A stretch of 64,000 nucleotides of DNA from Rhizobacter sp. AJA081-3. Its GTDB lineage: Bacteria; Pseudomonadota; Gammaproteobacteria; Burkholderiales; Burkholderiaceae_C. The notes under the pieces were generated by a model that was not told the origin of the DNA, searched no databases, and saw only the letters and a program-made list of their open reading frames with translations. Location of the stretch: positions 4,464,001 to 4,528,000 of the forward strand of contig NZ_CP059067.1 of the NCBI RefSeq assembly GCF_017795745.1, in the 5' to 3' direction. The translations under genes and the position numbers were made by a program. Of this stretch, positions 10,071 through 32,839 are shown piece by piece (positions within the stretch are counted from its first letter, which is position 1; every line of letters starts with the position of its first letter).

Positions 10071-12037
10071 CAGGCATTCTCCAGGGTGGTGGCGCTGCGG
10101 CCGATGGCGTGGGTTCGCTGAAGCGCCAGGTCCAGCGCGTCCACGAAGGCGTCGCTCTCCATGGGCTGCGCAAGGAATCTGAAGCAGCCCGCCGCCAGCG
10201 CGGCCTCGGCATCGCGCGGCATGGCGTCTTCACCCAGTGCGATGACAGGGATGTGCGATGTGCTCGGGTCTCTGGCCAGCAACTGCATGGCCTGCAGGCC
10301 GCCTGGGTCCGACGGGCGGACGCCGATCAGGATCACGTCGGGCCGCGCCGACCGTGCCATCTTGATGCCGGCGTCGATGTCGCGTGCGCGCAGCAGGCAA
10401 GTACGCGGCCGTCGGGCAAGGATTCTTTCGAGGCGCAGCAGTCGGCCAGCGTCTTCCTCGACGTACAGCACGGTGTGCTCCGGCACACGTCTGTCGTCAA
10501 CGGGCGGCGGTGCCGCATCAAGCTCGAACCAGAAGCAGCTGCCGACGCCTGGCGTGCTGTCGACACCGATGCAACCGCCCATCAGCTCGACCAGCCGCTT
10601 GCAGATCACCAGGCCGATGCCCGTGCCAGGCTCGGTGCCGGACTCCTTTCCGAGCCGATTGAAGGGCTGGAAGAGTTGCGCGATCTGCGCTGCCGCCAGT
10701 CCCCGGCCTGTGTCCTCGACACTCACGCGCACGCGCTGCTCGGGTGTCACGGTGCAGCGCACCGTGACCTGCCCGGCGCTGCGGTTGTACTTGATGGCGT
10801 TGGACAGCAGGTTGATGAGCACCTGCTTCGTCCTCGTCGGGTCGGCCTGCACGAAGCAGGGCTGCTCGAAGTGCGGGAAGACCAGCCGGATGCCACCACC
10901 CTGCGCCTGCGGCTCGATCATGGCCCGGCAGTCATCGAGCACATCCTGCAGCGACATCGACTGCGACGACAGCACGGTCTTGCCGGACTCGATCGACGTC
11001 AAGTCGAGGATCTCGTTGATCAGGCCCAGCAGGTACCAGCCGGCGCTGAGGATCTGCTGGACGCTGTCCTGCTGTGCCGGCGTGGGCGGGGGCGTGCCGG
11101 CCTCGAGGAGCTGCGTGAAGCCGAGCATGGCGCTCAGCGGCGAGCGGAGCTCATGGCTCATGCTGAGCAGGAAATCCGATTTCGCCCGGTTCGCCGCCTC
11201 TGCCTCGGCCTTGGCGGCAATCAGCGCCAGTTCGACGCGCTTGCGTTCCGTGGTGTCGTAGAACAGCACCGCCACTTGGCGCGCTTGCGGATCCCCCAGA
11301 CGAAAGGCGTAGACATCGAACCAGCGTTGCAGGGCCTCGGAGTGCCGCTCCATGCGCACAGGCGTGCCCGTCGAGGCGACGCGTCCATAGGCCTTGAGCC
11401 ACAGGTCCTCGATGTCCGGCACCAGGCCATGCAGAGTCCGGCCCACGGCCGCATGCAAGCCGGTTTGTTGCTCGAACGCCGGGTTGACCTGGATGTAGTG
11501 GGCATCGATGGCGTCGCCGGCTGAGTCGAAGCTCAGCTCTATGACGGCATAGCCCGCGTCGATCGAGTTGAACAGGGCTCGGTAGCGCTCTTCCGATGTG
11601 CGCAGGGCTTCTTGCGCACCCCGGCGTTCGGTCAGCAGCGCGAAGCGTCCGATGGCGTTCTCGACAGCGCGCGTCAGGCTGTCGGCGCTGGTCCAGCGCT
11701 TGCCGATGAAATCCTGGGCACCGGCGCCGAGCAGATTCGGCCCTTCTTCCATCGCCATGCCGGTGATCACGACCACCGGGCACGGCGGCATTCCGGTGTC
11801 GCGGCACAGCGCCGCCAGCACCGCATGGGCGTTCATGTCGGGCAGGTCGTAGTCGAGCAGCACGCAGTCCACCGGCCCGCTGTGCGGGTCGAGCAGCATG
11901 CAGATGCCCTCGGCGCCCAGCCGGGCCTCGCTGAAGCGGTAGCGGCGGCTGCCACCGAGCAACAGCATCTGTCGCAGCTCGGCGCAGTCTTCCGCGTTGT
12001 CTTCGATCAGCAGAATGTGCCAGGGCGGTTTGGCCAT
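10070..12037 (-). CDS. Hybrid sensor histidine kinase, REC-PAS-HisKA-HATPase-pseudoREC
   Basis: A 655-residue cytoplasmic kinase. An N-terminal receiver (ILLIEDNAEDC, Asp in VLLDYDLPDM, Lys in FIGKRW) leads to PAS (about 145-265), HisKA with the phospho-His box LLSMSHELRSPLSAMLGF, and HATPase with N box LINLLSNAIKYN and G boxes DTGRGL and GTGIGL. The C-terminal receiver is degenerate: VILIGVRPSD has Gly where the phosphoacceptor Asp belongs, and FLAQPME has Gln for the conserved Lys. So it cannot accept phosphate in the usual way. No membrane segment is visible. The gene sits 15 bp after the small receiver gene and overlaps the next gene by 1 bp, consistent with relay from the phytochrome. 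Confidence 0.9.
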   Translation of the reverse strand: MAKPPWHILLIEDNAEDCAELRQMLLLGGSRRYRFSEARLGAEGICMLLDPHSGPVDCVLLDYDLPDMNAHAVLAALCRDTGMPPCPVVVITGMAMEEGPNLLGAGAQDFIGKRWTSADSLTRAVENAIGRFALLTERRGAQEALRTSEERYRALFNSIDAGYAVIELSFDSAGDAIDAHYIQVNPAFEQQTGLHAAVGRTLHGLVPDIEDLWLKAYGRVASTGTPVRMERHSEALQRWFDVYAFRLGDPQARQVAVLFYDTTERKRVELALIAAKAEAEAANRAKSDFLLSMSHELRSPLSAMLGFTQLLEAGTPPPTPAQQDSVQQILSAGWYLLGLINEILDLTSIESGKTVLSSQSMSLQDVLDDCRAMIEPQAQGGGIRLVFPHFEQPCFVQADPTRTKQVLINLLSNAIKYNRSAGQVTVRCTVTPEQRVRVSVEDTGRGLAAAQIAQLFQPFNRLGKESGTEPGTGIGLVICKRLVELMGGCIGVDSTPGVGSCFWFELDAAPPPVDDRRVPEHTVLYVEEDAGRLLRLERILARRPRTCLLRARDIDAGIKMARSARPDVILIGVRPSDPGGLQAMQLLARDPSTSHIPVIALGEDAMPRDAEAALAAGCFRFLAQPMESDAFVDALDLALQRTHAIGRSATTLENA

Positions 12038-12052
12038 TGGGTAGGGGGAGGT

Positions 12053-12466
12053 TCAGGCGGGCAGCACGACGCTGCCCAGCCAGTAGGCGAAGATCTGCTG
12101 CAGAACCTGCAGATGCAGGGCGTGGTCCACCGGTTTGACGTGGTACGCATTGGCGCCGTGCGCGTAGCAGAACTGCAGGTCGCGTGGGTTGGCCGAGGCG
12201 GTGAGCACCACGAGCGGCAAGGCCTTGAACCTGTCGTCGCTTCGGATCTCTCGCAATGCTTCGCGGCCATCGTCACCGGGCGTGTTCAGGTCGAGCAGCA
12301 CCAGCCCCAGGCGGCCGCGCAGGTCGCCGTGCAATTGGCGCAGGCAATCGCTCCCGGAGCTGGCGCGCACGATCGGATGGGGCAGCTGCGCGCGCCGGGC
12401 GGCATCCTGCACGGTCTGGAAGTCTTCGTCGGAGTCCTCCACCACGAGGATGGGTCGCCCAGGCAT
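12053..12466 (-). CDS. Stand-alone receiver (Rcp1-like) partner of the phytochrome
   Basis: The 137-residue protein is a single receiver domain: ILVVEDSDEDFQTV at the N-terminus, phosphoacceptor Asp in LVLLDLNTPGDDG, Thr/Ser in LVVLTASANP, and Lys in AYHVKPVDH. Rcp1-type receivers are the usual phosphotransfer partners of bacterial and cyanobacterial phytochromes. The start codon shares one base with the stop of the bacteriophytochrome gene (TGATG), which supports coupled translation and this pairing. Confidence 0.9.
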   Translation of the reverse strand: MPGRPILVVEDSDEDFQTVQDAARRAQLPHPIVRASSGSDCLRQLHGDLRGRLGLVLLDLNTPGDDGREALREIRSDDRFKALPLVVLTASANPRDLQFCYAHGANAYHVKPVDHALHLQVLQQIFAYWLGSVVLPA

Positions 12467-14820
12467 CAGCGCGCCTCCCCCGGCATGCCGGGCAAGGTGA
12501 AAAAGAACGTGGTGCCCACGCCCAGGCTCGAATCCAGCCAGACACGCCCGCCGTGGCGCTGCACCAGCTTCTGAACGATGGTCAGACCGGCGCCGACGCC
12601 GCCGCCGTAGTCGTCGCGGCCGTGCATCCGCTTGAACATGCGAAACACCTGTTCGTGGTGCCGCTGGGCAATGCCGATGCCGTCGTCCTTGACGTAGAAG
12701 ATGGCTTGCCCGGCGGTTTCGGGCGGGGCGTTGGGACGCGCTGCCGCTTCATCTGCGGCGAGGTAACCCACTTCGATGCGCACGTCGGCCTGCTGCTTGT
12801 ACTTGATCGAGTTGGCCAGCAGGTTGCTGTAGATCTCTCGAACCCGAACCGGGTCGCATCGCGCGTTCGGCAGCGGCCGCGGAATCTCGATGCTGCAGCG
12901 GCTTTCGGGCCGCTGCGCTCCGATCATCTCCAGTGCCTCCTCGAGCACCGCATTGAGGTCGGCATCTTCCAGCTCCAGCTCCATCCGGCCCACGCGCGAG
13001 AAGTGCAGCAGCGAGTCGAGGAGGCTGTCCATGCGCACGGTCAGGCGCATCATGTTCTCGATGCGCCTGCGGTTGTCGCCGTCCACGGCCTCTGCGCTTT
13101 CCAGCAACTGGTGCGCGTAGCGGTGGATGCCGCGCAGCGGCTCCTTCAGGTCGTGCGAGGCCACGTACGCAAAGGCGTCGAGCTCGTCGTTGCTGCGCGT
13201 CAGGTCGGCGTTCAGGTCGGCCAGGCGTTCGGCACGGGTGATGACGAGCTCCAGCACCAGCAGGCGCAAGCGCAGCGCCGCATCGATCTCGATGCCCGCC
13301 CAGGGCGGCGACTGCCCGCGCACCGATTCGACGAAGATCTCGAACGATGCGCGCGGGCTCAGGCGCAGGCCCTGCGGGCCGGGAACGGCCGGCTCGTCGT
13401 GCGGATTGCCCGCCCACTTCACCGTCTGCAGGGTCTGGGGCCGGAACCAGATCATCAGCCCGCGCCGCTGGCGAGACAGCGCCACCGCGAGCACGCCGCT
13501 GGCGATGTCTTCCAACCCCTCGGCGGCGGGGCAAGCACGCGCCAGCGCATCCGTGACAAAGACCGGCCGTGTCGCAGATTCCAGTTCGGGCCGCCCGTAC
13601 AGCCACGCGGCCAGCTCGTCGAGCTGAGTCACGTCGGGCACGCGGCCCACGCACCACCAGCGATCCAGGTGGTACAGCGCGGCGCCGCCGGCATCGATGG
13701 CATCGAGCAGCGAGGGCTGGTGCGCGGTGAGGGCGAGCAGGTCGCCTTCGCGTGCCGAGCGGGCCACCAGTTGCTGGTGCACTTCTTCCAGCCTCAGCCG
13801 GTAGGACAGCTGTTCTGCCTGTTCGGCCGACTTCAGTTGCAGCGACGCCACCTGGGCCAGCAGTTCGCAGGCCGCGCGTACCTGGTAGGGAAACTGCGTG
13901 GCGGCGTAGTGGTGGCAGGCGATCAGGCCCCAGAGTTCACCGTCGAGCATGATGGGCATCGTGAGCGACGCCGCCACGCCCATGTTGGCCAGGTACTCGG
14001 TGTACATCACCGACGCGCCGCGCAGCGCGCAGTGCGTCATGTCGAGCGCGTGGCCGTTGTCGGGATTGGCCAGTGGAAGCATTTCCACCAGCGGGCCGGC
14101 GGCATCGGGCAACGGGCGGATCCAGATGCGCTTGAAGATCTCGCGCGCCGGCTGCGGGATGTCGGCAGCCGGGTAGTGCAGCCCGAGCCAGGGCGCCAGC
14201 GTGTCGCGCCTGCTTTCGGCGATGACCTCGCCGTGATGGTCGGGGTGGAAGCGGTAGACCATCACGCGGTCCAGGCCCGTGATGGCGCGCACTTCCTCGG
14301 TCACTTGCTGGCAGAAGCCGCGCACGCTGGCAGCGGCCTGCAGGCGACCGACCGCCGACTTCACCAGCAGGAAGAAGTCGCTGCCGCTGTGCTGGCCGGC
14401 GCGCACGGTGGACTCGAACTCCAGCACGGCCACACCGCCGCTGGTGTGCAGGCTGACGTCGAGCGGCAACGCGCCGGAGCGCGCCGGCAGCGTGAACGCG
14501 TAGGCCGGACCGCGCTCCAGCGCCTCGTGCGCCAGCATCTCGCGCAGGCGAGCCTCTCCCGTGGAACCCACCACGTGACCCACCGGCTGGCCGAGCAACT
14601 GCTCCGCGGCTTCGCCCAGGTGCTGCAAGGTGTTTTCGCTGGCCTGCAGGATCCGCAGGTCGCTCAGGCGCAGCACCAGCAGCGCGCCATGGGCCTGGAT
14701 GCAGCCCGGCGTCTGCACCGGTTCGCTGTCGCAGCTGGTCAGTGTCGTGCCGTGGCGCTTGATGCTGTAGGGGCCCGTTCCCCAGGGCAGGGGCGGGTCA
14801 GCAGTGGCTCGCGAGTTCAT
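12466..14820 (-). CDS. bphP: Bacteriophytochrome histidine kinase
   Basis: A 784-residue red/far-red photoreceptor kinase with PAS-GAF-PHY-HisKA-HATPase order. Cys30 in TSCDSEPVQTPG matches the N-terminal cysteine that binds biliverdin in bacteriophytochromes. The GAF domain holds the signature PAADIPQPAR, and the PHY region has a tongue-like segment near VLAVALSRQRRGLMIWFRP. The kinase core has VASHDLKEPLRGIHR (phospho-His) and SNLLANSIKYK, DDGIGI and GGGVGAGLTI in the ATPase. No heme oxygenase (bphO) is adjacent, so biliverdin must come from elsewhere. ATG 14820 is chosen because it places the chromophore Cys at the usual distance. It heads a four-gene signalling operon. Confidence 0.95.
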   Translation of the reverse strand: MNSRATADPPLPWGTGPYSIKRHGTTLTSCDSEPVQTPGCIQAHGALLVLRLSDLRILQASENTLQHLGEAAEQLLGQPVGHVVGSTGEARLREMLAHEALERGPAYAFTLPARSGALPLDVSLHTSGGVAVLEFESTVRAGQHSGSDFFLLVKSAVGRLQAAASVRGFCQQVTEEVRAITGLDRVMVYRFHPDHHGEVIAESRRDTLAPWLGLHYPAADIPQPAREIFKRIWIRPLPDAAGPLVEMLPLANPDNGHALDMTHCALRGASVMYTEYLANMGVAASLTMPIMLDGELWGLIACHHYAATQFPYQVRAACELLAQVASLQLKSAEQAEQLSYRLRLEEVHQQLVARSAREGDLLALTAHQPSLLDAIDAGGAALYHLDRWWCVGRVPDVTQLDELAAWLYGRPELESATRPVFVTDALARACPAAEGLEDIASGVLAVALSRQRRGLMIWFRPQTLQTVKWAGNPHDEPAVPGPQGLRLSPRASFEIFVESVRGQSPPWAGIEIDAALRLRLLVLELVITRAERLADLNADLTRSNDELDAFAYVASHDLKEPLRGIHRYAHQLLESAEAVDGDNRRRIENMMRLTVRMDSLLDSLLHFSRVGRMELELEDADLNAVLEEALEMIGAQRPESRCSIEIPRPLPNARCDPVRVREIYSNLLANSIKYKQQADVRIEVGYLAADEAAARPNAPPETAGQAIFYVKDDGIGIAQRHHEQVFRMFKRMHGRDDYGGGVGAGLTIVQKLVQRHGGRVWLDSSLGVGTTFFFTLPGMPGEAR

Positions 14821-15134
14821 CGTGCGGCGTGCCCTGGGGTGGTGCCGCAGGAGAGACAGCGCAGGCACACACGCTCGGACGCCGGCGCGAGCGTCCTCCG
14901 GCAGCTGGGTTGGGTTTCGTAGGGCAAGATTCCGGCAAGATCGCATGCCGCCGGCGCCGTGTCTGTGCGGTATCGAACATGCTCACCGGTCGACAGGCGG
15001 CGTGCCCTGTGGTCAGACGAAGTGCCGGCACGCGGCCGGGGCGCCAGGCTCCGGCGACAGGGGTCGCACCGAATTCTTTTCTTGCGGTGCGCCCCAATGC
15101 GGGAACTCGATCCGAATCGGACTACCCTCCGGGT
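14821..15134. other. Intergenic region upstream of bphP and the 112-aa gene
   Basis: This 314-bp gap separates two divergent genes. I see no convincing ORF, promoter match or strong hairpin. A short inverted repeat TCCG-AAT-CGGA lies near 15110, shortly before the start at 15135. Confidence 0.4.
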
Positions 15135-15634: not shown

Positions 15635-17752
15635 TCAGACTTCGCCTGCACTCTCTCCAAGCATCAGTCGCTCGCACTGCAGGCAAAGATAGTTCGCGCG
15701 CAGCAGTCGCTCGCCTGCGCCGACATCCTGAGTCAGCACGGCGCGAAAGATCGTGAAGCCGGCGTCTGCCAAACGCTCCGCGTGGCTCGCCAGTCCGGCG
15801 CGCGCTTGTTCGGCATGGTCCGGTGGACTGCCGCGCTCCGCCTGTCGCTGCAGTTCATGCCGCAGGTGCTGCAACGCACCTGGTGCCACTGGCGCATTCA
15901 TCGCCGGCATCGGTGCATCGCGCGAAGGAACCATGCGCTTCAACCGCTCCAGAAGCGCCGAGGCCATACCCAGCTGCGGTGCGTCGTCGAAGTACAGCGC
16001 ATCGACGCAAACGTCCTTGCCATCGGGGCGCACCAGGCTCAGGGGCTCTGCCACCACGCCGCCCTGCGTGGACGCACGCAGCCGGGCAATCACCAGAGTT
16101 CCCGGCACCAACGCGGCCGGCCCCAGGCTTTCGACGCGCCCGATGGCGTGCTGGCTGTACTCGTCGAACGGCGTCTCCGCGGCCAGCGTTTGCCCCTGCC
16201 CATCCAGCAGCGGCCAGACCAGGGTTTGACGCGCGTCGTCGAACCGGGCTTCGCCGAACTGCGTGGGCCGCAACGCCACCCAGTCCTTCATCGGTTCGGG
16301 CTCGGCGAGCAGGCTGGCACGCTGTTCACCGCGTGCGCTGCACAGCGCTGCCCAGGAGTCCCAGGGCTTCAGCATCTGCACGAGCGACGCGCCATCGAGC
16401 GGCAGCACGGTGGCACTGGCGCTGTCGGCTGCCGACAGCCGGCCTGCGTCGTTGACTTGCGCCCCTTGCAGCACGACACGCTGTCCCGTGGTCTGCGCCG
16501 GCGCACCCAACCCAGCCCAAGGGCCGGCGGCCTTGTAGCGGGCGATCGGGTTGAAGCCGCGCTGCGCTTGCGGGCGCGCATCGGTGCAGGACATGAACGC
16601 CTGCTCGGCCGGCGACCAGAAGATCATCGTGAGGCCCACGTAACCCGCCGGCGAGCGCCACGCCTGCGCGCCCAGGCCCAGCAACTCCAGCGAGGCCGCC
16701 GACTCGTAGCGCGAGCGAGCGCGCCCCACCAGGTGCCGCGGCGCCGCGCCTTTCGCGGCGGCAGCCTCCAGCGCGCACACCAACCCGTGGGCGATGCTCA
16801 GCTCGTCGAGCAATCGCAGTTCGTCGGCACCCCCGGCACGCTCGAGCAGCAGTTCCACGTGGTCGGCGATGCGGCGCGTCAGCAAGGCGAGGCGGTGGTA
16901 CTCCGCGCCCTGCGCCCACACGGCCAGGGTCGCGTAGCGCTCCTGGATGCCGCGCGAGAGGTGCGCCAGGCCCAGCTCCACCGACTCGGCCAGGATCTTG
17001 CGCAAGGCGCCGCGCAGGCGCGCGCGCGACTCATCGAGGCTCGCGTCGCGCGGCTCGGCCAGCGCGTGGTCCATGCCGAGGTCCAGCGCCTGGTTGCGCT
17101 GCCGGGCGGTGGGCTCGGGCGGCGTGAGTTCGCGGCCATGGGCCCGCTGGAAGGCCAGCACCGCGGCCACGCGGTACTTCTCGATCTGCGCCAGTTCGGC
17201 ATCGGCGATCAGTGCGTCGAGGCCACCGCCCATGTAGCGCAGCGTGACGCGCGGGCGCTGCAGGCCGAGCACGAGGTGCTGCGTGCCGGAGATCAGCAGA
17301 GCGTGCTCGGGTTCGAGGTCCTGCACATACTGCCAGGCCCAGCGGTAGCCAGCCTTGCCGGCGTGGCGCACGAGCTCGGGCGCCGTCAGCGCCAGCAGGG
17401 CGGCCTGCAACGGCGCCAGCGGGTCGGCCTCGGCCGCAACGGCGGCCTCGGCGGCAGGGGCCGTGGCTTGCAGCGTCTGCTGCAGCCCCATCGCCGCCGC
17501 GAGGATGTGCTGGCACATGCCGCTGGCCGGGCAGTCGCACTGCGCGTGGGCCGGGCCGCGATGGTCGAAGCGGATGCGCTGTGCGCCGAAGCCCACCACC
17601 ACCTGGGTGGCGGACTGCTCGATCAGCTCGGCGCGCTGCTGCTCCAGGTCCTTGCGGGCCCGGCGCACCAGGCCGCGGTTGGCCAGCGCCACGTAGGACT
17701 CCTCGTCGAAGCGCGCCAGCAGCGCGGCGAGCTGATCGAGCACGCCGCTCAC
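15635..17752 (-). CDS. SWIM zinc-finger protein (YehQ-like)
   Basis: A 705-residue protein. The SWIM zinc finger sits near residue 70-85: AQCDCPASGMCQHILAAAM, matching CxCx(n)CxH. The rest is largely helical with no enzyme motif I can name. SWIM domains bind nucleic acid or protein partners. The GTG start at 17752 overlaps the VWA stop by 4 bp (GTGA), making it the last of five coupled genes. Order and content match yehQ of the E. coli yeh cluster. The upstream in-frame extension overlaps the VWA gene and is rejected. Confidence 0.8.
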   Translation of the reverse strand: MSGVLDQLAALLARFDEESYVALANRGLVRRARKDLEQQRAELIEQSATQVVVGFGAQRIRFDHRGPAHAQCDCPASGMCQHILAAAMGLQQTLQATAPAAEAAVAAEADPLAPLQAALLALTAPELVRHAGKAGYRWAWQYVQDLEPEHALLISGTQHLVLGLQRPRVTLRYMGGGLDALIADAELAQIEKYRVAAVLAFQRAHGRELTPPEPTARQRNQALDLGMDHALAEPRDASLDESRARLRGALRKILAESVELGLAHLSRGIQERYATLAVWAQGAEYHRLALLTRRIADHVELLLERAGGADELRLLDELSIAHGLVCALEAAAAKGAAPRHLVGRARSRYESAASLELLGLGAQAWRSPAGYVGLTMIFWSPAEQAFMSCTDARPQAQRGFNPIARYKAAGPWAGLGAPAQTTGQRVVLQGAQVNDAGRLSAADSASATVLPLDGASLVQMLKPWDSWAALCSARGEQRASLLAEPEPMKDWVALRPTQFGEARFDDARQTLVWPLLDGQGQTLAAETPFDEYSQHAIGRVESLGPAALVPGTLVIARLRASTQGGVVAEPLSLVRPDGKDVCVDALYFDDAPQLGMASALLERLKRMVPSRDAPMPAMNAPVAPGALQHLRHELQRQAERGSPPDHAEQARAGLASHAERLADAGFTIFRAVLTQDVGAGERLLRANYLCLQCERLMLGESAGEV

Positions 17753-18870
17753 GAGATCACCTTCACCAGCCAGTGCGCCAGCTTCTGCGGCGTGAGCGCG
17801 GCGATCTCCATGCCGCAGGCGGCCAGGCGTTCCGCCATCTGGCGGTCGTAGACCGGGTGGGCCTGACTGTCGAGCGAGGCCAGGCCGAGCAGCTTCACTC
17901 GCGCTTCGGCGAGCTTCTTGACGGCGCGCACCAGCTCGCCGGCTGGCGCGCCTTCGCAGAAGTCGGTCACCAGCACGAGCACGGTGCGGTGCGGGTTCTC
18001 CACCAGCTGGGTGCAGTAGCGCACGGCCTGCGCGATGTCGGTACCGCCGCCGAGCTGCACGCGCATCAGCGTCTCGACCGGGTCGTCGGCATGATCGCTG
18101 AGATCGACGACGCTGGTGTCGAACACGACGATGCGCACCCGGAAGGCCGGCAGCGCCGCGAGGATCCCGGCCATCACCGCGCTGTGGATCACCGAGTCGG
18201 CCATGCTGCCGCTCTGGTCCACGCACAGGATGATGTCCCAGGGCAGGCGGCGCGTGTTGCGCTCGAAGAAGCGCAGCTGCTCGATGACGAGCTGCCCGCG
18301 CTCGCGGTCGAAGTGCTTGAGGTTCTTGCGGATCGTGCCCTTGGCATCGAAGTTCTGGGCGATCGCCATCGGCGAATGGCGGAAGCGGTTGAGCCGGCCC
18401 GACAGGGCCTGCCGCACCTCGGGCTCGAGCTGGCGGCGAATCTCCTCGACCACCTGGCGGATGATGCGGCGCGCCAGGTGCAGCACGTCCCCCTTCAAGT
18501 GGCCACGCAGCGAGAGCAAGGTGCGCAGCAGCTGCTGGTTGGGCTCGAGCCGCTCCAGCGTCTTCGGGTCGGTGACGAGCTCGGTCAGGCCGTAGCGGTC
18601 GAGGGCGTGCTTCTCGATGAGCTCGACGGTCTCCTGCGGGAACAGCTCGCGCACCTCGCCCAGCCAGGTCACCAGCGTCAGCTGAGACGGGTCGAGCGAT
18701 CCCGGCGCGGGGTCGTCGCGCAGGCCGCGGCCCTTGTACTCGCGGCCGTAGAGGTATTCGAGCGCGCGGTCCATGCGGCCGTACTCGGCCTGCAGGCCGC
18801 CGCCCTGCCCGGGCAGCCGCTGCTCGGCGTACTTGCCGAGCACGAGGCGCCAGCGGGCGACGTTCTTCAT
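17749..18870 (-). CDS. VWA (MIDAS) domain protein (YehP-like)
   Basis: A 373-residue protein with an N-terminal helical part and a C-terminal von Willebrand A domain. The metal-ion-dependent adhesion site is intact: DQSGSM near residue 212, the Thr/Asp of QLGGGTDIAQAV, and the Asp in VLVTDFCEG. There is no signal peptide or membrane segment, so it is a cytosolic VWA partner, as found for MoxR ATPases. The start overlaps the DUF5682 stop by 4 bp and its own stop overlaps the SWIM gene by 4 bp. It corresponds to E. coli yehP. A chaperone- or adaptor-like role with the ATPase is inferred. Confidence 0.88.
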   Translation of the reverse strand: MKNVARWRLVLGKYAEQRLPGQGGGLQAEYGRMDRALEYLYGREYKGRGLRDDPAPGSLDPSQLTLVTWLGEVRELFPQETVELIEKHALDRYGLTELVTDPKTLERLEPNQQLLRTLLSLRGHLKGDVLHLARRIIRQVVEEIRRQLEPEVRQALSGRLNRFRHSPMAIAQNFDAKGTIRKNLKHFDRERGQLVIEQLRFFERNTRRLPWDIILCVDQSGSMADSVIHSAVMAGILAALPAFRVRIVVFDTSVVDLSDHADDPVETLMRVQLGGGTDIAQAVRYCTQLVENPHRTVLVLVTDFCEGAPAGELVRAVKKLAEARVKLLGLASLDSQAHPVYDRQMAERLAACGMEIAALTPQKLAHWLVKVIS

Positions 18871-21308
18871 GCGTCCACCCAGCTGGCCAGGCCGTCGGCC
18901 CGCAGCACGTCGAGCAGGCGCTGCGTGGTGGCCAGGTGGGCCTGCACCTGACCGGCGGAGATGTCGTAGCGCACCAGGCGGCCGAGGTCGGCCTCGCCGT
19001 GCAGCTCGGCCACCGACTGCGCGATGCGGTCGGTCTCCTTTGGCGTCATCTCGGCAAAGGCCAGGCGCAGCTCGGGCAGGTTGGCGATGAAGTCGGCGTC
19101 GTTCCAGTCCGCGAGCAGGCGATCGAGCACCGACAGCAGCGCGGGCTGCTGCCAGGCCGCCTCGCGCGCGGTCTGCAGCAGCCCGCGCAGGAACGACACC
19201 GCATCGCGCGGCGCGATCAGGCCGTTGAGGTGGCCGTCCAGCGCCACGCCGAGCTCGGCCTCGGCCAGGCGCCCGGCGCCGTAGGCCAGTCCGGCCGCCG
19301 CACCGCGGACGAAGGCCGACTCATTGCCGGCGTGCAGCTCGTCGACCAGCGCCCAGTAGAGCGCCGCATCGAGGCGCTGGCCGGCCTCGCTGGCCAGCAG
19401 CTCGCGCAGGCGCGACAGCCCTGCGACGACTTCGCTGCCGTCGCCCGCGGCGCCCTGCAGCCCGCGGCCGAGGTAGATGGCACGCTCGTAGCCCGCCTTC
19501 AGCAGCACGGGCAGCTGCTCGATGCCGCGTGCCTCCAGCGGCTCGCGCGACTCCCACAACAGCCCCAGCGTGCCGGTGGCGTGCGCGACCGACTCGAACT
19601 GCGCATCGGCCCCGATCACCGTGGCCAGCGTGCTCGCCACCTTCGGCACATGGTCGTGCAGGCCGAGCACGCAGGCCTGCACGAGCAGCGCCGCGGCGGC
19701 CTTGGCATGGCGCGGCTCGGCGCCGGCCTCGAAGCGCTCCAGCCGCTCGGCGAAGCGCGCCGACACCGCCAGCGGCACGGTGGTGCCGTACACCGAGGCC
19801 TCCACCAGCGCGGCCTCCGTGGCCGCCGAGTGCGTGTAGTCCCAATGTTCCTGCAGCCGGTCGAGACCGAATCCGTTGACGAAGTCGGGGCCGGCGCTGC
19901 GGTGGGCCAGCGGCACGCCGAGCAGGCCCAGGCCGTGGAACAGCCGGCTGGTGACGCGGTGCTCGGGGCGGCGGTAGATGTCGAGCACGGCGCGGCGCGG
20001 CTGGGAGTCGTCGATCTTCAGGCGCTGTCGGCGCGCCCGGTACTCGAAGTCGCGCACCAGCGGCGGCGTGCTCGCACCCGGCGGCACCTTGCCCATGGCC
20101 TGGCCGCTGAGCATGCGCCGGGCCACGGCAAGCACCAGCGCGCCATCGGCATCGGCATCGCCCTTGACGAAGCAGCTGGTCACCGCATCGAGCACGTCGT
20201 CGCGCACGGGCGCCGGGCGCTGGCGCAGCGCGGCGAGCTGCAGCGCGTGCTCGTAGGCCGCGCCGAGGGCCGGCATCGGCAGCGGCAGGCCGTGGCGGCC
20301 GCGCAGCTCGATGGCGATGTCGAACAGCATGGTCAGCGCGAGCTCCTGGCGTACGCGCGCACCGGCCGGCAGGCCGGCCTTGTCGTGCCGCAGCATGCGC
20401 TCCCACAGGTGCTGCTGCCAGGCCGGCGAAGTCATCCCGGCGGAGTAGCCGTTCAGGCGGTCCAGGCGATCCTGGCCGTAGCGGATCAGTGCGGCCGCCT
20501 CGTCGCTGACGGTGCTGCGCGAGATCGCCGGCCGCGCGGTGCGGCCGCCCTCCAGCAGGCCGGGCAGCGCAACCGCATGGAAGCCGCCGACCACCGCGAG
20601 CACCGGCCCGTCGCCCGGCTGGCGGCGATCAAGCGCCTGCCGGATGTGCCAGGCCATCTCGTCCTCGCGCGCCAGCGTGCCGTCGGCGCGCAGTTCCTCG
20701 TCGCTGCACTCCACGCGGGCCAGGTGGCAGTAGGCGGCCATGTCCAGCACATGCTCGTGCAGCGTGCGCGCCGTCGCCGGCGCCTCGAACAGGTGCTCCC
20801 AGAGCTCCTCGTGGTCGCGGCAGCCCAGCCGCGAGGCCAGCGCGCCGAGGTAGCGGCTGCGGCGGAAGTGGCGTTCGTCGAGCAGCGACTGCGCTTCGCC
20901 GTCGTCCTCGTCGGGCTCGATCTGGCACTGCTCGGCATGGTCGAGGTCGATGAAGCGGGCCGGGATGCCCTGCTCCTGCGCGGCGCGCAACGCCACCAGC
21001 TCGGGCGAGTGATCGCAGAACGGGTAGTAGGCGGCGCGCCGCCGAGCCGCCTGCTCGCCCTGCGGCTTGAACACGGCGTAGGTGTAGACCGCCAGCGGCA
21101 TGCGCGCCTCGGGATGCACGAGCATCGGGATGAGCGGGTCGAAGCAGCGCGGCCCTTCGACCAGCACCGTGCTGGGTCGCACCGTGGCCAGCCAGCGGCG
21201 CAGCTGCCACGCGCAGGCCGGGCTGTGGTGCCGCACCGGAAACAGCACCAGCTCGGGCCCGATCAGCCGGGCCCCCAGCGCGCGCACCGCGTCCGACGTG
21301 GGCAGCAT
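18867..21308 (-). CDS. DUF5682 family protein (YehM-like)
   Basis: The 813-residue protein begins GARLIGPELVLFPVRHHSPACA and continues with VLVEGPRCFDPLIPML, RFIDLDHAEQC and VVGGFHAVALPGLL. The pattern of His/Glu motifs recalls the TraB/TIKI-EreA superfamily of putative hydrolases, so an enzymatic N-terminal half is possible; this is inference. The C-terminal half is helical. DUF5682 proteins regularly occur between MoxR and VWA genes, as here and in E. coli (yehM). ATG 21308 is chosen because it starts 13 bp after the MoxR stop. Its stop overlaps the VWA start. Confidence 0.8.
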   Translation of the reverse strand: MLPTSDAVRALGARLIGPELVLFPVRHHSPACAWQLRRWLATVRPSTVLVEGPRCFDPLIPMLVHPEARMPLAVYTYAVFKPQGEQAARRRAAYYPFCDHSPELVALRAAQEQGIPARFIDLDHAEQCQIEPDEDDGEAQSLLDERHFRRSRYLGALASRLGCRDHEELWEHLFEAPATARTLHEHVLDMAAYCHLARVECSDEELRADGTLAREDEMAWHIRQALDRRQPGDGPVLAVVGGFHAVALPGLLEGGRTARPAISRSTVSDEAAALIRYGQDRLDRLNGYSAGMTSPAWQQHLWERMLRHDKAGLPAGARVRQELALTMLFDIAIELRGRHGLPLPMPALGAAYEHALQLAALRQRPAPVRDDVLDAVTSCFVKGDADADGALVLAVARRMLSGQAMGKVPPGASTPPLVRDFEYRARRQRLKIDDSQPRRAVLDIYRRPEHRVTSRLFHGLGLLGVPLAHRSAGPDFVNGFGLDRLQEHWDYTHSAATEAALVEASVYGTTVPLAVSARFAERLERFEAGAEPRHAKAAAALLVQACVLGLHDHVPKVASTLATVIGADAQFESVAHATGTLGLLWESREPLEARGIEQLPVLLKAGYERAIYLGRGLQGAAGDGSEVVAGLSRLRELLASEAGQRLDAALYWALVDELHAGNESAFVRGAAAGLAYGAGRLAEAELGVALDGHLNGLIAPRDAVSFLRGLLQTAREAAWQQPALLSVLDRLLADWNDADFIANLPELRLAFAEMTPKETDRIAQSVAELHGEADLGRLVRYDISAGQVQAHLATTQRLLDVLRADGLASWVDA

Positions 21309-21321
21309 CGTGCCGGGCGGC

Positions 21322-22425
21322 TCAGCGATCGAGCTCGCGGCGCGCATCGAGCACGCGCTTCCATTGCGCGTGGCGCTGCGCACGCTGCTTGACCACCACG
21401 TCGAAGTAGTGGCGCAGCTTCTTGCCGTCCTCCGGGTTGTCCTTGAGCACGGTGCCGATCAGCTGGCGCGCCACATGGTCGCCGCCGACCGAGCCGTCGC
21501 CGAAGTAGTGCGCATCCAGGCAGGCCGCATACCCCACCGACACCGCCTCGGCGGAAGACATCACCGCCGTGGGCTTCTCGATCACCACGCCCTCGCTCGT
21601 CACGCCCTGGCGCAGGTCGTTGAACGCGGTCACGAGCAGGTCCACCACGTCGGCGTCGAAGTCGACCTCCACCTGTGCGCGCGCCAGCAGCGCCTCGGTC
21701 TGCTCGCGCACCAGCTGGGTCTCGAGCTTGCGGTCGGCGATCGGCCGCACCGTCTCGAAGTTGAAGCGGCGCTTGAGCGCGCTCGACATCTCATGCACGC
21801 CGCGGTCGCGGATGTTGGCGGTGGCCAGCACGTTGAAGCCGCGCTGCGCGAACACCGTGGCGCCCTCGCCGTCGAGCTCGGGCACGTGCAGCACCTTCTC
21901 CGACAGCAGGCTGATCAGGCTGTCCTGGATTTCGGGCTGCACCCGCGTCACCTCCTCGAAGCGGCACAGCATGCCGCCGCGCATCGCCTCGTGCATCGGC
22001 CCGCCCACCAGCGCGCGCGGCGTCGGCCCTTCGGCCAGCAGCAACGCGTAGTTCCACGAGTACTTGATCTGGTCCTCGGTGGTGCCGGCGGTGCCCTGGA
22101 TGATGCAGATCGAGTTGCCGCTGATCGCCGCGGCCAGCAACTCGGAGAGCATCGACTTCGCCGTGCCGGGCTCGCCCACCAGCAGCAGCCCGCGGTCGCT
22201 CATCAGCGTGACGATGCAGCGGTCGATCAGCGCGTCGTCGCCGTAGAACTTGCGCCGCACGCCGAGCTTGTCGTCGCCGAGGATGAAGCTGCGCACGGCG
22301 CGTGGCGACAGCCGCCAGCCCTGTGGTCGCGGGCCGGCGTCCTTCTCGCGCAGACGGGCCAGTTCCTCGGCGTGCACCTGCTCGGCAGGTGCGCGCAGCA
22401 CGGCGGCGGATTCGGTGTGTGGCAT
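21322..22425 (-). CDS. MoxR-type AAA+ ATPase (YehL-like)
   Basis: A 367-residue AAA+ ATPase. The Walker A motif is GEPGTAKSML near residue 82, the Walker B-like acidic pair is in MLCRFEEVTRV, and sensor 1 lies in VLATANIRDRG. A C-terminal lid region with SSAEAVSVGYAACLD follows. MoxR ATPases act as remodelling chaperones with VWA proteins, and the VWA gene of this cassette lies two genes downstream. The start is 1 bp from the DUF4132 stop. It matches yehL of E. coli in order and neighbours. Confidence 0.9.
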   Translation of the reverse strand: MPHTESAAVLRAPAEQVHAEELARLREKDAGPRPQGWRLSPRAVRSFILGDDKLGVRRKFYGDDALIDRCIVTLMSDRGLLLVGEPGTAKSMLSELLAAAISGNSICIIQGTAGTTEDQIKYSWNYALLLAEGPTPRALVGGPMHEAMRGGMLCRFEEVTRVQPEIQDSLISLLSEKVLHVPELDGEGATVFAQRGFNVLATANIRDRGVHEMSSALKRRFNFETVRPIADRKLETQLVREQTEALLARAQVEVDFDADVVDLLVTAFNDLRQGVTSEGVVIEKPTAVMSSAEAVSVGYAACLDAHYFGDGSVGGDHVARQLIGTVLKDNPEDGKKLRHYFDVVVKQRAQRHAQWKRVLDARRELDR

Positions 22426-22426
22426 T

Positions 22427-25400
22427 TCAGTACTCGCTCTTCTTCTGCCAGTCGGCGTGGTAGCCCGTGCCCTCGGCGGCGATCAGGCGCAGGTCGTTGT
22501 AGCACTCCGACAGCAGCACCTTCGGCACCTTCGCCAGCGTCAGCTTGCCTCGCTGCCCGCTCGACTTGTCGGCACTGCTGGCGAACGACAGGTTCAGCAG
22601 CGCCACGGTGCGGTTCTCTTCGGGCAACGGGTTGCCGGTGAACTCGAGCACCGCCTGCAGCCCGAGCGTCGGGAAGCGCTTCTCGTAGACGTGGAACCAG
22701 CCGCCGTCTTCCGCCGGCCCGCGTGTGTAACCCAGCTTCAGCGCACGGCCGCGCAGCGCGAAGGCCTCGATCAGGTGTCCCTCGAAGTCCTTGATCGCGT
22801 CGTTGCCGGCCTTCGCTTCGGGCAGCGCGTAGTGGCCCTTGCCGAGCTGCTGGAAGAGCGGCTTGATCTCGTAGTCCACCAGGTGCTGCTGCCAGGCCGA
22901 CACGGCATCGGCGCCGATCAGCGAGTCGTGCGCGAGGCGCACGCGCGCCCCCTCGGTCAGTTCGACCGCGTTGTCTTCGTGGTCGGTGAGCGTGCCGTCG
23001 TCGAGCGGCCGGAAGGTCCGCGCCGCCTTGCCGTCGATGAGCTCCACCCACACCAGCCGCTGCACGAGGTGGCGCAGCACGGGGTGCTGCTGCAGGTAGG
23101 CAGCCCAGTCGGCGGCGGGCCACTCGCGCTCGGTGCACAGCGCCTCGTAGAGGCGGTCGGTCTGCAGGTCGACGATGCTCTTGAGTTCCTTCTTCGCCGC
23201 GCCGAAGGCCTTCTTCGCCTCCTTGGCCTGCTCGGCATCGTCGTCCTGCCGCGGCTCCGGCAGGGCCGCGATCTTCTTGCCGTCCGGGTTGAACAGCTCG
23301 ACCTTGAAGTCGGGCAGCAGGCGCGCCGTGAAGTTGCGCGGCCCGAAGCTCAGTTCGAGCGTGCCGGTCTCGTCGAAGCCGGCAGAGGGCACGGTGCGGT
23401 CGGCCAGCTCGGCGAGCGTCCAGCCCTTGCGTTCGGCCAGCGCCTCGGCCTGCCGCGTGGCCTCCTCCTGGAAGCTCTTGGTACGGAAGCGGCTGCCGAT
23501 GGCCAGCATCAGCTGCGTGGCGCTCGGGTGGTCGATCCAGGCCAGCATCGCGATCAGCGCCTTGCCCTGCGAGGCGCGCGAGCCGTACCACTCCTTGAGG
23601 TAACGCTGCGTGGGCCCGGCTGCGCGCTCGCGCGCGCAGGCCGCCGCCACGGCCAGCAAGCCCTTGGCGCCGATGGCCGAGCCGGCGGGCTGGCGCAGCT
23701 GGCCGGGCAGGAAGGCGGCGGTCAGCTCCTCCACGGACTTGCCGAGGTTCGGGCTGTCCTTGTAGTACTGCGGGTAGCTCGCCATCGAGGAGAAGGTCCC
23801 CTGCGCGGAGCTTTGCGCGCGGCGCATCGCCTCGTCGGGCGGGATCGGCCGCACGTCCTCGCGCAGCCAGGTCTCCAGCACGAACTGGCCGAACGCCTCG
23901 CGGTCGCGCGCATCGAACATCTCGCAGTACTTGCGCAGCACCGCATTCGGCTCGGGCGTCTTCTGCTTGACCGCCTGCATGATCATCCAGCGCAGCACGT
24001 CGGGCGGCACGGCCGCGCCGCTGTCGGCCCAGCGGACTTCGGGCAGCGCGCTCCACGGGAAGAATTCCAGGTCCTTCGGCAAGCCCTTGGCGAGCGACTT
24101 GGCCGCCTCGGCCGCCAGTGCCTTGCGGTCCAGGTACTTCTCGACCGGCTGGCCGAGGGCCTGCAGCGCATCGAGCATCGCGCCCTTGGCGACGTCGTGC
24201 TTCTCCTTGGCGACCGCCTTCTCCAGCGCGGGCACGGACGCCCCGTGGCGAAGCCGGGCCAGCCACAGGGCCGCGACAGTGCGCGTCTCCGCCTTGCCGT
24301 CGGCCAGGGCCGAGATGATGCGCTCCTCCTTGCCCGGGTGGTTCTGCAAGGCCTCCTGGGCCGGCCCGCGATCGGTCTTGCCCGAGCCCAGCGCCAGCGT
24401 GAACAGCGCATTGATGGCCGCTGCCGGCGGCTTGGGCAGCGTGGCGATGGCGCGGAACAGCCCGGCGCGGCCGAACGAGTAGTCCTTGATGGTGTCGTGC
24501 AACAGGGCCTGCAGCACGGCTTCGAGGTGGTGCGCGAAGAAGGGCCACACCTGCTCGTTGGGCCAGTCGCCCGCGAACTGAGCGCCCCACGCGTGGCAGT
24601 AGTTGCGCAGCAGCGCCTGGCCCGACTGCCCGGCCTCGTCGAGCATGCACGACAGCTCGATCAGGCTCGGCTGCCCGATGCGCCGGTGCATCGCGTTGAA
24701 GGCCTGGATGGCCGGATGCATGAGCATGCCGTCGTGCGAGGTCGCGATGTCGAAGAACAGCAGCACCTTGAGCATCGCCGCCGGCCCCACGCCATCGGTC
24801 TCGGCCAGCTTCAGCGTGGGCTGGGCCACGTGGTTCCAGCCGCGCCCGCGCTGCGGGGTGCGATCCGGCGGCCGGGGCTTCCCCGATTCGAGGTAGGCCT
24901 GCAGGGCAAGCGCATCGGCACCGGTGAAGGGCTCGTCCTGGCGCAGCGGGAACTTGTGCCCCTGGGCCGCCATGCGCGCATGGTGCTCGCGCATGCTGGC
25001 GTTCGAGCGCGTGATCGATTCGTCGATGTCCTTCCACAGGCGCGCCAGCGCTTCTTGGGGCACCCGGCAGTTGGCGGCCGACCAGTCGATGCTCGGCAGC
25101 ACGACCTCATAGGCCTGCTCTTCCTGCTCGGCCGCCTGCTCGCCCGCATCCCACTCGGCGAGCAGCGCCTGCACCGACGGCGCCTTGTCCGCCGCCGCGG
25201 TCTCGCGGGCGAAGGCCGCATCGCCGCCATCGCCCCGTTCCGTGCCGAGCTGGTGCAGCAGCCGCAGCGCATGCAGGCGCTGCTCGGGCTTGCCGTTCAA
25301 GGCCAGTTCGCGCAGCGGGGCCGACACGGCGGCGCCGCATCGGCGCAGCGCGCCCTCCGCCGGGATGCGCACCTGCTTGCTGCTGGCCACACCCAGCTCG

Positions 25401-26158
25401 CACAGCTGCGGCGCGAGCTGCTCGAGCGTGGCCGCGGTGGCGCGCGCCAGCATCGCCAGCACATGCACGCGCTGCGCCACCGACGCGGCGAGCAGATGCG
25501 GCCGCACCGCCTCGAGGTGGCGCTCCAGCGCCTGCGGATAGTCCGGCAGATCGGTCAGCATCAACAGGCGCTGCTCGGCGCCGTAGCCGGAATCGACCGG
25601 CGAGGCAAAGCAGGCGACGACCAGCGAGGCCGGCTCCAGCCCATCCTCCTGCAGCATCGCCTCGATCTGCGCGCACGCCAGGCCCTGGGCCTGGGGCCGC
25701 TGGCTCGACCAGCCCGTCAGGCTGCTCTCGGCGCTGGCCATCAGCATCACTTCGGGCCAGTGGGTGCCGCGCGGCAGCTGCAGCCGCCACGACGACACCT
25801 GGCCCTTCACGCTGGCCTCGAGCACGCGCGCCCAGCGCATGGCCACGACCGGCGGCACGGCACCGAAATGCTCGAAGACATCGGGCAATTCGCGCTCACC
25901 GCGGCCGTAGTGGTAGCCCGTGAGCCGGAAGCGCTCGCCGACCTCCGGCCGCTGCCCCACCTCGTGGAGCACCGCCATCGGCTCGCCCTGCAGCACGAAA
26001 CCGAGGATGTCGCGAGCCAGGCCCTTGCGGCCCTTGCCGCCATCGACCTGGTCCAGCGGCTCGAGCAACTTCTCCAGGCGCCGGGCCCAGGCCTCCGGGA
26101 CTCCGGGCGGCAGCTCGAACGCGCTGTCGCCGAGCAGCTTGGCCATCCATTTCAGCAT
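22427..26158 (-). CDS. DUF4132 giant protein (YehI/MolR-like)
   Basis: A 1243-residue protein beginning MLKWMAKLLGDSAFELPP, with helical repeat-like segments through the first two thirds and a C-terminal DUF4132 domain (about residues 960-1240: GTLELSFGPRNFTARLLPDF, HDSLIGADAVSAWQQHLVDY, ending HADWQKKSEY). In E. coli the related yehI lies in the molR locus; an old link with molybdate regulation exists, but its biochemistry is unknown. The start at 26158 is supported by a strong GGGGAGGAA ribosome site about 8 nt upstream. It heads the five-gene cassette and is divergent from creD. Confidence 0.85.
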   Translation of the reverse strand: MLKWMAKLLGDSAFELPPGVPEAWARRLEKLLEPLDQVDGGKGRKGLARDILGFVLQGEPMAVLHEVGQRPEVGERFRLTGYHYGRGERELPDVFEHFGAVPPVVAMRWARVLEASVKGQVSSWRLQLPRGTHWPEVMLMASAESSLTGWSSQRPQAQGLACAQIEAMLQEDGLEPASLVVACFASPVDSGYGAEQRLLMLTDLPDYPQALERHLEAVRPHLLAASVAQRVHVLAMLARATAATLEQLAPQLCELGVASSKQVRIPAEGALRRCGAAVSAPLRELALNGKPEQRLHALRLLHQLGTERGDGGDAAFARETAAADKAPSVQALLAEWDAGEQAAEQEEQAYEVVLPSIDWSAANCRVPQEALARLWKDIDESITRSNASMREHHARMAAQGHKFPLRQDEPFTGADALALQAYLESGKPRPPDRTPQRGRGWNHVAQPTLKLAETDGVGPAAMLKVLLFFDIATSHDGMLMHPAIQAFNAMHRRIGQPSLIELSCMLDEAGQSGQALLRNYCHAWGAQFAGDWPNEQVWPFFAHHLEAVLQALLHDTIKDYSFGRAGLFRAIATLPKPPAAAINALFTLALGSGKTDRGPAQEALQNHPGKEERIISALADGKAETRTVAALWLARLRHGASVPALEKAVAKEKHDVAKGAMLDALQALGQPVEKYLDRKALAAEAAKSLAKGLPKDLEFFPWSALPEVRWADSGAAVPPDVLRWMIMQAVKQKTPEPNAVLRKYCEMFDARDREAFGQFVLETWLREDVRPIPPDEAMRRAQSSAQGTFSSMASYPQYYKDSPNLGKSVEELTAAFLPGQLRQPAGSAIGAKGLLAVAAACARERAAGPTQRYLKEWYGSRASQGKALIAMLAWIDHPSATQLMLAIGSRFRTKSFQEEATRQAEALAERKGWTLAELADRTVPSAGFDETGTLELSFGPRNFTARLLPDFKVELFNPDGKKIAALPEPRQDDDAEQAKEAKKAFGAAKKELKSIVDLQTDRLYEALCTEREWPAADWAAYLQQHPVLRHLVQRLVWVELIDGKAARTFRPLDDGTLTDHEDNAVELTEGARVRLAHDSLIGADAVSAWQQHLVDYEIKPLFQQLGKGHYALPEAKAGNDAIKDFEGHLIEAFALRGRALKLGYTRGPAEDGGWFHVYEKRFPTLGLQAVLEFTGNPLPEENRTVALLNLSFASSADKSSGQRGKLTLAKVPKVLLSECYNDLRLIAAEGTGYHADWQKKSEY

Positions 26159-30259: not shown

Positions 30260-30496
30260 GTGAGTTCTCCTTGTTCTCTTGCGTGTTGGGGATGGGTGCC
30301 GTTACAGCAACGGCCGCGGACGTCGAATGCCTGGGCCCGGATCGCACGGTGCGCGTCGGCCGCCTCCTCCCTGAAGGCGACCTCGGCTGGCCGTGGATGC
30401 GAAGCCCCGCGTGCTCGGCGCACGAGCGGCCGCCGCTGATGCACGTTCGGGCAGGCGCCCTCGGTGCACGTTCGGCGGTGGTCTTTCGACCGTTCT
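30260..30496 (-). other. Leader between tRNA-like elements and the slipin gene
   Basis: Non-coding 237-bp stretch. It contains a 6-bp hairpin (GCCGTT/AACGGC) near 30299-30315 and the direct repeat TGCACGTTCGG (30439 and 30476 areas). No sigma-54 promoter of the TGGCAC-N5-TTGC type, expected if RtcR drove the slipin and rtcB genes, was seen. A 62-codon frame here lacks coding character. Confidence 0.4.
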
Positions 30497-30567
30497 TGGA
30501 TGGAGCGGGAGTCGAACCCGCGACAGACGACTTATCAGGTCGTTGCTCTACCCGACTGAGCTATCCA
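30497..30567 (-). tRNA. tRNA-Ile(GAU)-like gene with shortened acceptor
   Basis: D-arm (GCTC/GAGC), 5-bp anticodon arm (ACGAC/GTCGT) with loop CTGATAA (anticodon GAU) and T-arm (GCGGG-TTCGACT-CCCGC) are all canonical. The acceptor is not: only TGGA/TCCA can pair, followed by TCCA as a possible discriminator plus CCA. The 5' side abuts the preceding tRNA-like element with one base between them, so a normal 7-bp acceptor cannot form. A tRNA-like RNA rather than a decoding tRNA is likely. Confidence 0.6.
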
Positions 30568-30568
30568 G

Positions 30569-30624
30569 TGGTGGTGATGCCGGGAGTCGAACCCAGGCCC
30601 TTGCGGGCCAACCAATGCATCACC
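30569..30624 (-). ncRNA. 56-nt mini-tRNA-like RNA without D-arm
   Basis: An 8-bp acceptor-like stem (GGTGATGC/GCATCACC) ends in ACCA. A T-arm (TGGG-TTCGACT-CCCG) stacks on it, giving the 12 bp found in normal acceptor/T-arm stacks. The D-arm is missing, and in place of an anticodon arm there is a 5-bp hairpin (GGCCC/GGGCC) closed by a GCAA tetraloop, so no anticodon exists. It resembles minihelix-type tRNA mimics able to attract CCA-adding or tRNA-processing enzymes. Confidence 0.6.
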
Positions 30625-30676
30625 TGGCATCCGTCGATTCCAGCAGCGCGGCATGGACGGCACCGACAGGCTTTCG

Positions 30677-30759
30677 CCCGGGCGCCGCCCACCGGCGGGG
30701 TTCACGAACCCCGGGCCTGTGAGCGTTTGCCTTCCACGACAGATTCGTTGGCACCCGAG
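30677..30759 (-). ncRNA. Structured element with long closing stem and T-arm-like hairpin
   Basis: Starting 5 bp after the HNH stop, a 10-bp helix with two G-U pairs (CTCGGGTGCC/GGCGCCCGGG) encloses a hairpin CCAACGA/TCGTGG and a strong GGGG-TTCGTGAA-CCCC hairpin resembling a T-arm. No anticodon arm or CCA is visible. It could be another degenerate tRNA-like element or a processing signal. Confidence 0.35.
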
Positions 30760-30764
30760 CCTCG

Positions 30765-31340
30765 TCAGCTCAGGCGCGATCCCTTCGGCAGGCGCGCGGC
30801 CAGCCACTCGTGCACATCGGCGCGGATGTGCCGGCCTTCGAGCAGAAAGTCCTCGAATCGGCTCGGCACATACGGCAGGTACACGAGCGGCATGCCCGCC
30901 TCCTCCGGCGTGCGGTCGGCCTTGCGGCCGTTGCACACACCGCAGGCGGTGACCAGGTTCATCCAGGCCCAGCGTCCGCCGCGCGATTCCGGCAGGATGT
31001 GCTCGCACTGCAGCTCGCGCTCGTGAAAGCGCTGGCCGCAGTAGGCGCACGTCATGCGGTCGCGGCGGAACAGCTTGAGCTTGCTGAACGCCGGCACCAC
31101 GTCGAACAGGTTGACCTTCGACGCGCCGCGCAGCGCCATGATCGGGAACACATCGATGACCGATTGCCGCCCGCGCACGACGTTGAAGCCGCCGCGCAGC
31201 GTGGCCAGCGGCCCGCTGCCATCGACCCACGCCACCGAGCCCGTGGCCACGTGAACGGCCGCATGCTCGAGCGAGATCCACGCCTGCGGCGTGCCCTGGA
31301 TGTCGAGTTGCAGCACGTGGCTGTGGTGTTGGGTGTGCAT
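30765..31340 (-). CDS. HNH endonuclease
   Basis: A 191-residue nuclease. The N-terminal part starts MHTQHHSHVLQLDIQGTPQA. The C-terminal HNH domain has a zinc knuckle CAYCGQRF, the catalytic His in LQCEHILPESRGG, and the second zinc pair with Asn in NLVTACGVCNGRK. It should cleave nucleic acid with a ββα-metal active site. Whether DNA or RNA is cut is unknown. A near-perfect AAAGGAGG ribosome site precedes ATG 31340, and tRNA-Leu lies only 31 bp upstream on the same strand. This implies excision of tRNA from a shared transcript. Confidence 0.85.
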   Translation of the reverse strand: MHTQHHSHVLQLDIQGTPQAWISLEHAAVHVATGSVAWVDGSGPLATLRGGFNVVRGRQSVIDVFPIMALRGASKVNLFDVVPAFSKLKLFRRDRMTCAYCGQRFHERELQCEHILPESRGGRWAWMNLVTACGVCNGRKADRTPEEAGMPLVYLPYVPSRFEDFLLEGRHIRADVHEWLAARLPKGSRLS

Positions 31341-32832: not shown

Positions 32833-32839
32833 AAGAGAT

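Follow-up and report, generated by a model that had tools for sequence, protein, structure and literature searches.

A conserved five-gene cassette of Rhizobacter sp. AJA081-3, related to the Escherichia coli yeh operon, and its possible action as an ATP-driven remodelling machine

What do the genes of the yeh operon do together? This operon is found in approx. 95% of the complete genomes of Escherichia coli, yet it has no known function, and the same question is raised by a cassette present in a 64,000-nucleotide stretch of the contig NZ_CP059067.1 of Rhizobacter sp. AJA081-3 (hereafter, the window). The cassette consists of five open reading frames, all on the minus strand and arranged head to tail from 26158 to 15635, that encode a DUF4132 protein, a MoxR ATPase, a DUF5682 protein, a VWA protein and a SWIM zinc-finger protein. 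A preliminary description of the window had stated that these genes are tightly coupled and that they match yehI, yehL, yehM, yehP and yehQ. Both statements hold: the coordinates are exact, with gaps of 1 and 13 nucleotides and two overlaps of 4 nucleotides, and the five genes are orthologues of the E. coli ones, the same families occurring in the same order and on the same strand in K-12. Four of the proteins score above the Pfam cut-off (DUF4132 PF13569, 5.4e-44; AAA_5, 2e-34; DUF5682 PF18934, 1e-102; VWA_CoxE, 6.3e-55), and the SWIM protein lies slightly below it (PF04434, 17.6 versus 19.6 bits). We tentatively propose that the products of the cassette work together as one ATP-driven remodelling machine that includes a TraB/ChaN-type enzyme; the machine would be recruited to its substrate by HEAT, WGR and SWIM modules and used in genotoxic stress.

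The gene set was followed in 93 loci; a MoxR alignment, run against a genome collection in one scan, gave 80 named loci, and the others were added from a phylum sample and from E. coli. The genes for MoxR, DUF5682 and VWA are adjacent and in that order at 82 of the 93 loci, which excludes a chance grouping; contig ends account for many of the loci that depart from this arrangement. The SWIM gene lies next to this core at 75 loci, and the DUF4132 gene is located upstream of it at 44 loci and downstream at 23. The phyla covered are Pseudomonadota, Bacillota, Actinomycetota, Planctomycetota, Verrucomicrobiota, Bacteroidota, Spirochaetota, Myxococcota and Acidobacteriota. The five proteins are co-inherited, as their pairwise identities correlate with r values of 0.89–0.96 (without a correction for the relatedness of the species). 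A single open frame covers both DUF5682 and VWA in three loci, and these fusions suggest that the two proteins are in contact. A cyanobacterial contig (L058) carries a YehL-type MoxR gene with none of the other four families within 15 kb.

The sites of the motor and of its putative adaptor (Walker A and B, Arg finger, MIDAS and SWIM Cys3His) are conserved at 99–100%. In MoxR, Walker A (GEPGTAKS), Walker B (FEE), the sensor (TAN) and the KRRF motif are invariant in 93 relatives, and Walker A and B, sensor 1 and the Arg finger are all intact in the window protein. The metal-ion-dependent adhesion site (MIDAS) of the VWA protein, D-x-S-x-S...T...D, is complete as in CoxE-type adaptors and invariant in 83 relatives, and the SWIM signature Cys-x-Cys...Cys-x-His is 99% conserved in 71. 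Disrupted active sites across the relatives, set beforehand as evidence against an intact MoxR-VWA pair, were looked for and not seen. All 93 relatives have a Glu-Glu Walker B in MoxR in place of Asp-Glu, which may be a signature of the subfamily. Proteins of the MoxR family form AAA+ rings, and such a ring would be the motor of the proposed machine. In the NorQ/NorD system, the VWA domain acts as a plug in the MoxR ring and holds the client through its MIDAS, and the hydrolysis of ATP drives the remodelling of that client (PMC9976466); by analogy, the CoxE-like VWA protein may act as the MoxR adaptor and grip the substrate via the MIDAS metal.

The DUF5682 protein is the component for which a fold and candidate catalytic residues could be assigned; no paper naming this family was found in the literature searched. 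Its AlphaFold model, obtained with 77 sequences (predicted local distance difference test, pLDDT, 91.3; predicted template modelling score 0.87), has an N-terminal alpha/beta domain (approx. residues 1–256), a helical middle region and a C-terminal helical repeat. Using VIA-align, ChaN (2g5g) was superposed on residues 1–258 (Z 8.5, root-mean-square deviation 5.3, 173 residues), and the matches elsewhere are to helical repeats; for the top match (Z 11.2), which is a complex IV subunit of Tetrahymena, no family assignment was obtained. Since the ChaN Z value is middling by itself, a comparison of profiles was added. With hhalign, the N-terminal domain scored 37.6 over 205 columns against TraB_PrgY_gumN (null 12.9 ± 2.4, maximum 20.5) and 31.1 over 182 columns against ChaN (null 14.4 ± 2.6, maximum 21.0), where the null is given by column-shuffled profiles in 120 trials each. 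As controls, four unrelated families of the cassette scored 12.5–15.7, and TraB against ChaN itself 28.3. Residues H27, E51, R214 and H244 (G241-x-x-H244) of DUF5682 are invariant in 77 proteins from all phyla, and align in the same order with H19, E45, R215 and H241 of TraB, which lie in its motifs G-x-x-H, E, R and G-x-x-H. Active TraB/TIKI members have a His/Glu catalytic set and a nearby conserved basic residue (PMC6254334). The common alpha/beta core, recognized at a modest score, and the four motifs in order place the N-terminal part of DUF5682 in the TraB/ChaN (TIKI) fold group, which is a new assignment; this domain may act as a hydrolase. Compared with TraB/PrgY/GumN, TIKI and ChaN, whose fold and aligned His, Glu, Arg and His residues it shares, DUF5682 differs in being cytosolic-looking and far longer, in its C-terminal helical repeats, and in its tie to an AAA+ motor. 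Of the TraB/EreA-like motifs mentioned in the preliminary description, which also called for a check of conserved catalytic residues, the TraB part and the conservation of the candidate residues are borne out by these comparisons. For EreA, no signal was seen with a profile of only 7 sequences (PF05139): the score was 17.8, inside the background. When the DUF5682 and TraB profiles were searched against the sequences of proteins with known structure, only coiled or designed helical proteins came up, and this search was discarded. With DUF5682 placed in a superfamily of enzymes and four of its residues as candidates for catalysis, an anonymous operon is opened to specific experiments.

The resemblance to ChaN also bears on a different explanation, in which the cassette would be a chaperone for the insertion of cofactors or metal centres, of the CoxD/CoxE or NorQ/NorD type, and DUF5682 would handle a cofactor such as haem. 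In its favour, DUF5682 matches haem-binding ChaN both in structure and in profile, the VWA protein resembles CoxE, and the genes of the window predict a MoxR ring with a CoxE-like MIDAS VWA partner, as in those systems. However, such chaperones adjoin the genes of their clients; the window cassette has no client enzyme next door and no metalloenzyme recurs beside 92 loci. In addition, the invariant residues of DUF5682 fit the His/Glu/Arg/His set of TraB, and the cassette has, besides DUF5682, the HEAT, WGR and SWIM partners, which this explanation does not account for; we regard it as quite unlikely.

The AlphaFold model of the DUF4132 protein (pLDDT 89.2) shows helical repeats at approx. residues 1–870 followed by an alpha/beta C-terminal domain, and its Foldseek matches are HEAT solenoids. 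Among the relatives, there are at least 14 cases of a WGR domain that is part of the DUF4132 protein or encoded by a gene beside it. In the five loci of the phylum sample that do not have DUF4132, the same MoxR-DUF5682-VWA core is accompanied by DUF5691, another HEAT-like family (5 of 5), and by a divergent SWIM gene; therefore, the machine would consist of a fixed core and an exchangeable HEAT scaffold. DUF5691 was detected above the cut-off in 5 of the 299 genomes of this sample, all of them among the 11 that have DUF5682, and DUF4132 in 9, 7 of them together with DUF5682. According to our own hypergeometric estimate, which ignores relatedness, the probability of this co-occurrence is approx. 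2e-8 for DUF5691 and 3e-10 for DUF4132. The variant is also present, as independently annotated, on a plasmid of Deinococcus taeanensis, in the order SWIM-DUF5691-AAA-DUF5682-VWA.

The E. coli yeh operon shares with the window cassette the five families, their order and strand, and the conserved sites. The identities to the K-12 proteins are 26% for yehI (C-terminal part only), 47% for yehL, 29% for yehM, 48% for yehP and 28% for yehQ (N-terminus). In contrast with the window, yehK sits between yehI and yehL in E. coli, YehQ has two SWIM motifs instead of one, and a second DUF4132 gene with WGR, molR, is located upstream. Intact MolR of strain e1-39 carries the WGR domain; in K-12, molR is broken, being split into yehF and yehH. 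Since K-12 YehQ is also shorter (L003 15101-16945; 614 residues versus 666–667 in other E. coli strains), K-12 may be ill suited to experiments on these genes.

The occasion on which the proposed machine would be used is suggested by published work on DUF4132 genes. Among the genes listed as LexA-regulated in E. coli is molR (PMC11039860, PMC4576408). For DRA0166, a DUF4132 protein of Deinococcus radiodurans, an IrrE-dependent rise on mitomycin C has been described (PMC8533742). According to these papers, two unrelated regulons of the DNA-damage response, those of LexA and of DdrO, include DUF4132 relatives; the nucleic-acid link of the cassette is indirect, through this regulation and through the WGR domains of DUF4132 relatives. 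A LexA-like box is found directly upstream of yehF, and in a weighted search such boxes stood out only in E. coli and in Proteus faecis (L033). Conservation of the box was rejected, as strict CTGT-N8-ACAG matches were confined to Clostridia, within the coding motif RHHSP of DUF5682, a codon coincidence; the sole strict match outside this motif lies upstream of one Clostridial MoxR gene. Together, the HEAT-swapped form and the link of DUF4132 to two unrelated regulons make the function testable in E. coli.

Two further explanations bear on these regulons. A general protein quality-control or stress chaperone with no connection to DNA would agree with the broad distribution, the conserved motor and the HEAT scaffold, as well as with the RavA/ViaA-like roles of other MoxR pairs (PMC3893208); it leaves the WGR domains and both DNA-damage regulons unexplained, and strikes us as improbable. 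The quality-control role suggested in the preliminary description is compatible with the data. A role in regulating molybdate metabolism, as in the old annotation of MolR, is suggested by the historical gene name alone; moeA and moeB are unaffected on DdrO depletion (PMC8533742) and no molybdenum genes recur near the loci, which makes it highly improbable.

The distribution of the cassette bears on the conflict machine that the preliminary description had imagined. In its fullest form, an anti-phage or conflict system, HEAT/WGR and SWIM would sense invading nucleic acid, MoxR-VWA would set a threshold and DUF5682 would be the effector. The spread is patchy: the cassette is present in only one of eight congeners, and DUF5682 in 11 of the 299 genomes. 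All five window proteins have their nearest relatives at one and the same cross-class locus, from Pseudomonas (L027; 81, 64, 76, 53 and 70% identity); this shared match and the single carrier among the congeners indicate that the cassette was likely transferred as a block. Its neighbours in the window are not conserved among the congeners, according to an empty-site comparison. Occasional plasmid copies were seen, and DUF4132 is present in 20 loci as two or three tandem, diverse copies. The sole match in phage records, an unverified 14 kb faecal scaffold, was not accepted as a phage-borne cassette. Moreover, MoxR-VWA ternary conflict systems exist (PMC7159879), and WGR is also found in models of retron type XIII; PADLOC matches to WGR_XIII and reverse transcriptase concerned single flanking genes. 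On the other hand, no PADLOC-DB model rose above noise for the five proteins (one weak SWIM match, E 3.4e-4), and the flanks are ordinary genes with no defence-island pattern. In E. coli, yehL to yehQ are present, at a coverage of at least 80%, in 5162 of 5426 complete genomes, always chromosomal and in a single place. The ratio of nonsynonymous to synonymous polymorphism is 0.02–0.08 for yehL and yehP (for yehP, 0.11 between the two closest strains), 0.12–0.15 for yehM, 0.09–0.17 for yehQ and 0.20–0.26 for yehI; therefore all the measured genes are under purifying selection, yehI being the fastest evolving. Near-universal, fixed and constrained genes are unlike typical defence genes. The ternary VMAP and iSTAND systems (Kaur et al. 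2020) likewise combine MoxR and VWA with further partners, but the three partners of the cassette are invariant and differ from their third components, with no variable effector. No VMAP or iSTAND Pfam domain was found in the five proteins, for which no dedicated profile was run, and the bpMoxR Pfam model was below the cut-off. The conflict machine is thus not supported in the form proposed, although the patchy spread outside E. coli, the plasmid copies and the multiple DUF4132 copies keep the idea alive; we consider it rather unlikely, and a dedicated role in phage defence less likely than one in stress or repair.

In the remodelling machine that we prefer, the TraB/ChaN-fold catalytic domain of DUF5682, borne on its helical-repeat arm, would sit beside the VWA subunit and probably hydrolyse a peptide or ester bond in a substrate presented by the motor. 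Recruitment of the substrate would fall to the SWIM protein and to the HEAT solenoid protein, which is DUF4132 in the window and DUF5691 in the variant. Given the WGR domains on many DUF4132 relatives, this substrate is probably associated with nucleic acid; genotoxic stress is the likeliest occasion of use because DUF4132 relatives belong to the LexA and DdrO regulons. A more specific version, a DNA-damage-induced segregase-hydrolase with two parallel forms (DUF4132 and DUF5691), in which WGR, HEAT and SWIM would aim a MoxR/VWA motor and a cytosolic TraB/TIKI-type protease at a protein on damaged or foreign nucleic acid, is an unlikely refinement. Several points weigh against the proposed machine. 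Regarding the enzyme, the HH-suite probability is only 54% for TraB and 23% for ChaN, Foldseek with the whole DUF5682 model, dominated by its helical repeats, gave no match with E < 0.001, and the TIKI-fold group also includes non-enzymes. Regarding DNA damage, the published link concerns DUF4132 genes and not MoxR, DUF5682 or VWA; the E. coli LexA-like box is by itself at chance level, such boxes being common by chance, and none stands out upstream of the window cassette. The window DUF4132 copy has no WGR domain, DUF4132 occurs without DUF5682 in 2 of 9 genomes, and no experiment on any member of the cassette was found in the literature searched. The features of the cassette are collected in Table 1.

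Table 1. Genes of the cassette and motif positions in DUF5682 (window coordinates).
Feature	Coordinates	Strand	Description
DUF4132 protein (YehI-like)	22427..26158	-	1243 residues; HEAT-like solenoid and C-terminal DUF4132 domain; no WGR domain
MoxR AAA+ ATPase, YehL subfamily	21322..22425	-	367 residues; 1-nucleotide gap after DUF4132
DUF5682 protein (YehM-like)	18867..21308	-	813 residues; ATG at 21308; 13-nucleotide gap after MoxR
VWA protein, CoxE-like, YehP orthologue	17749..18870	-	373 residues; 4-nucleotide overlap with the DUF5682 gene
SWIM zinc-finger protein (YehQ-like)	15635..17752	-	705 residues; GTG start; 4-nucleotide overlap with the VWA gene
DUF5682 first putative active-site motif, R26-H27-H28-S-P	21219-21233 (codons)	-	H27 aligns with the TraB GxxH histidine
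Marker near this motif, codon of H21(?)	21246..21248	-	Marks the first putative active-site motif

Upstream, the operon is bordered by a divergent creD-like gene with its ATG at 26336. Downstream of the cassette, one operon on the minus strand (10070-14946) encodes a phytochrome histidine kinase, a single-domain response regulator and a hybrid kinase. Further away, at 30496-33540 on the minus strand, there are eight tRNA genes predicted by ARAGORN and a weak ninth (Rfam, 32843-32973), in a group that resembles an accessory tRNA array; within it lie an open reading frame near 31574-32722 and an HNH-like one near 30765-31340 (CAYCGQRF...HILPESRGG). As read from the sequence, a small helix-turn-helix gene and then a HipA-like kinase gene (34437-35965, minus strand) adjoin the tRNA-Phe at 36154.

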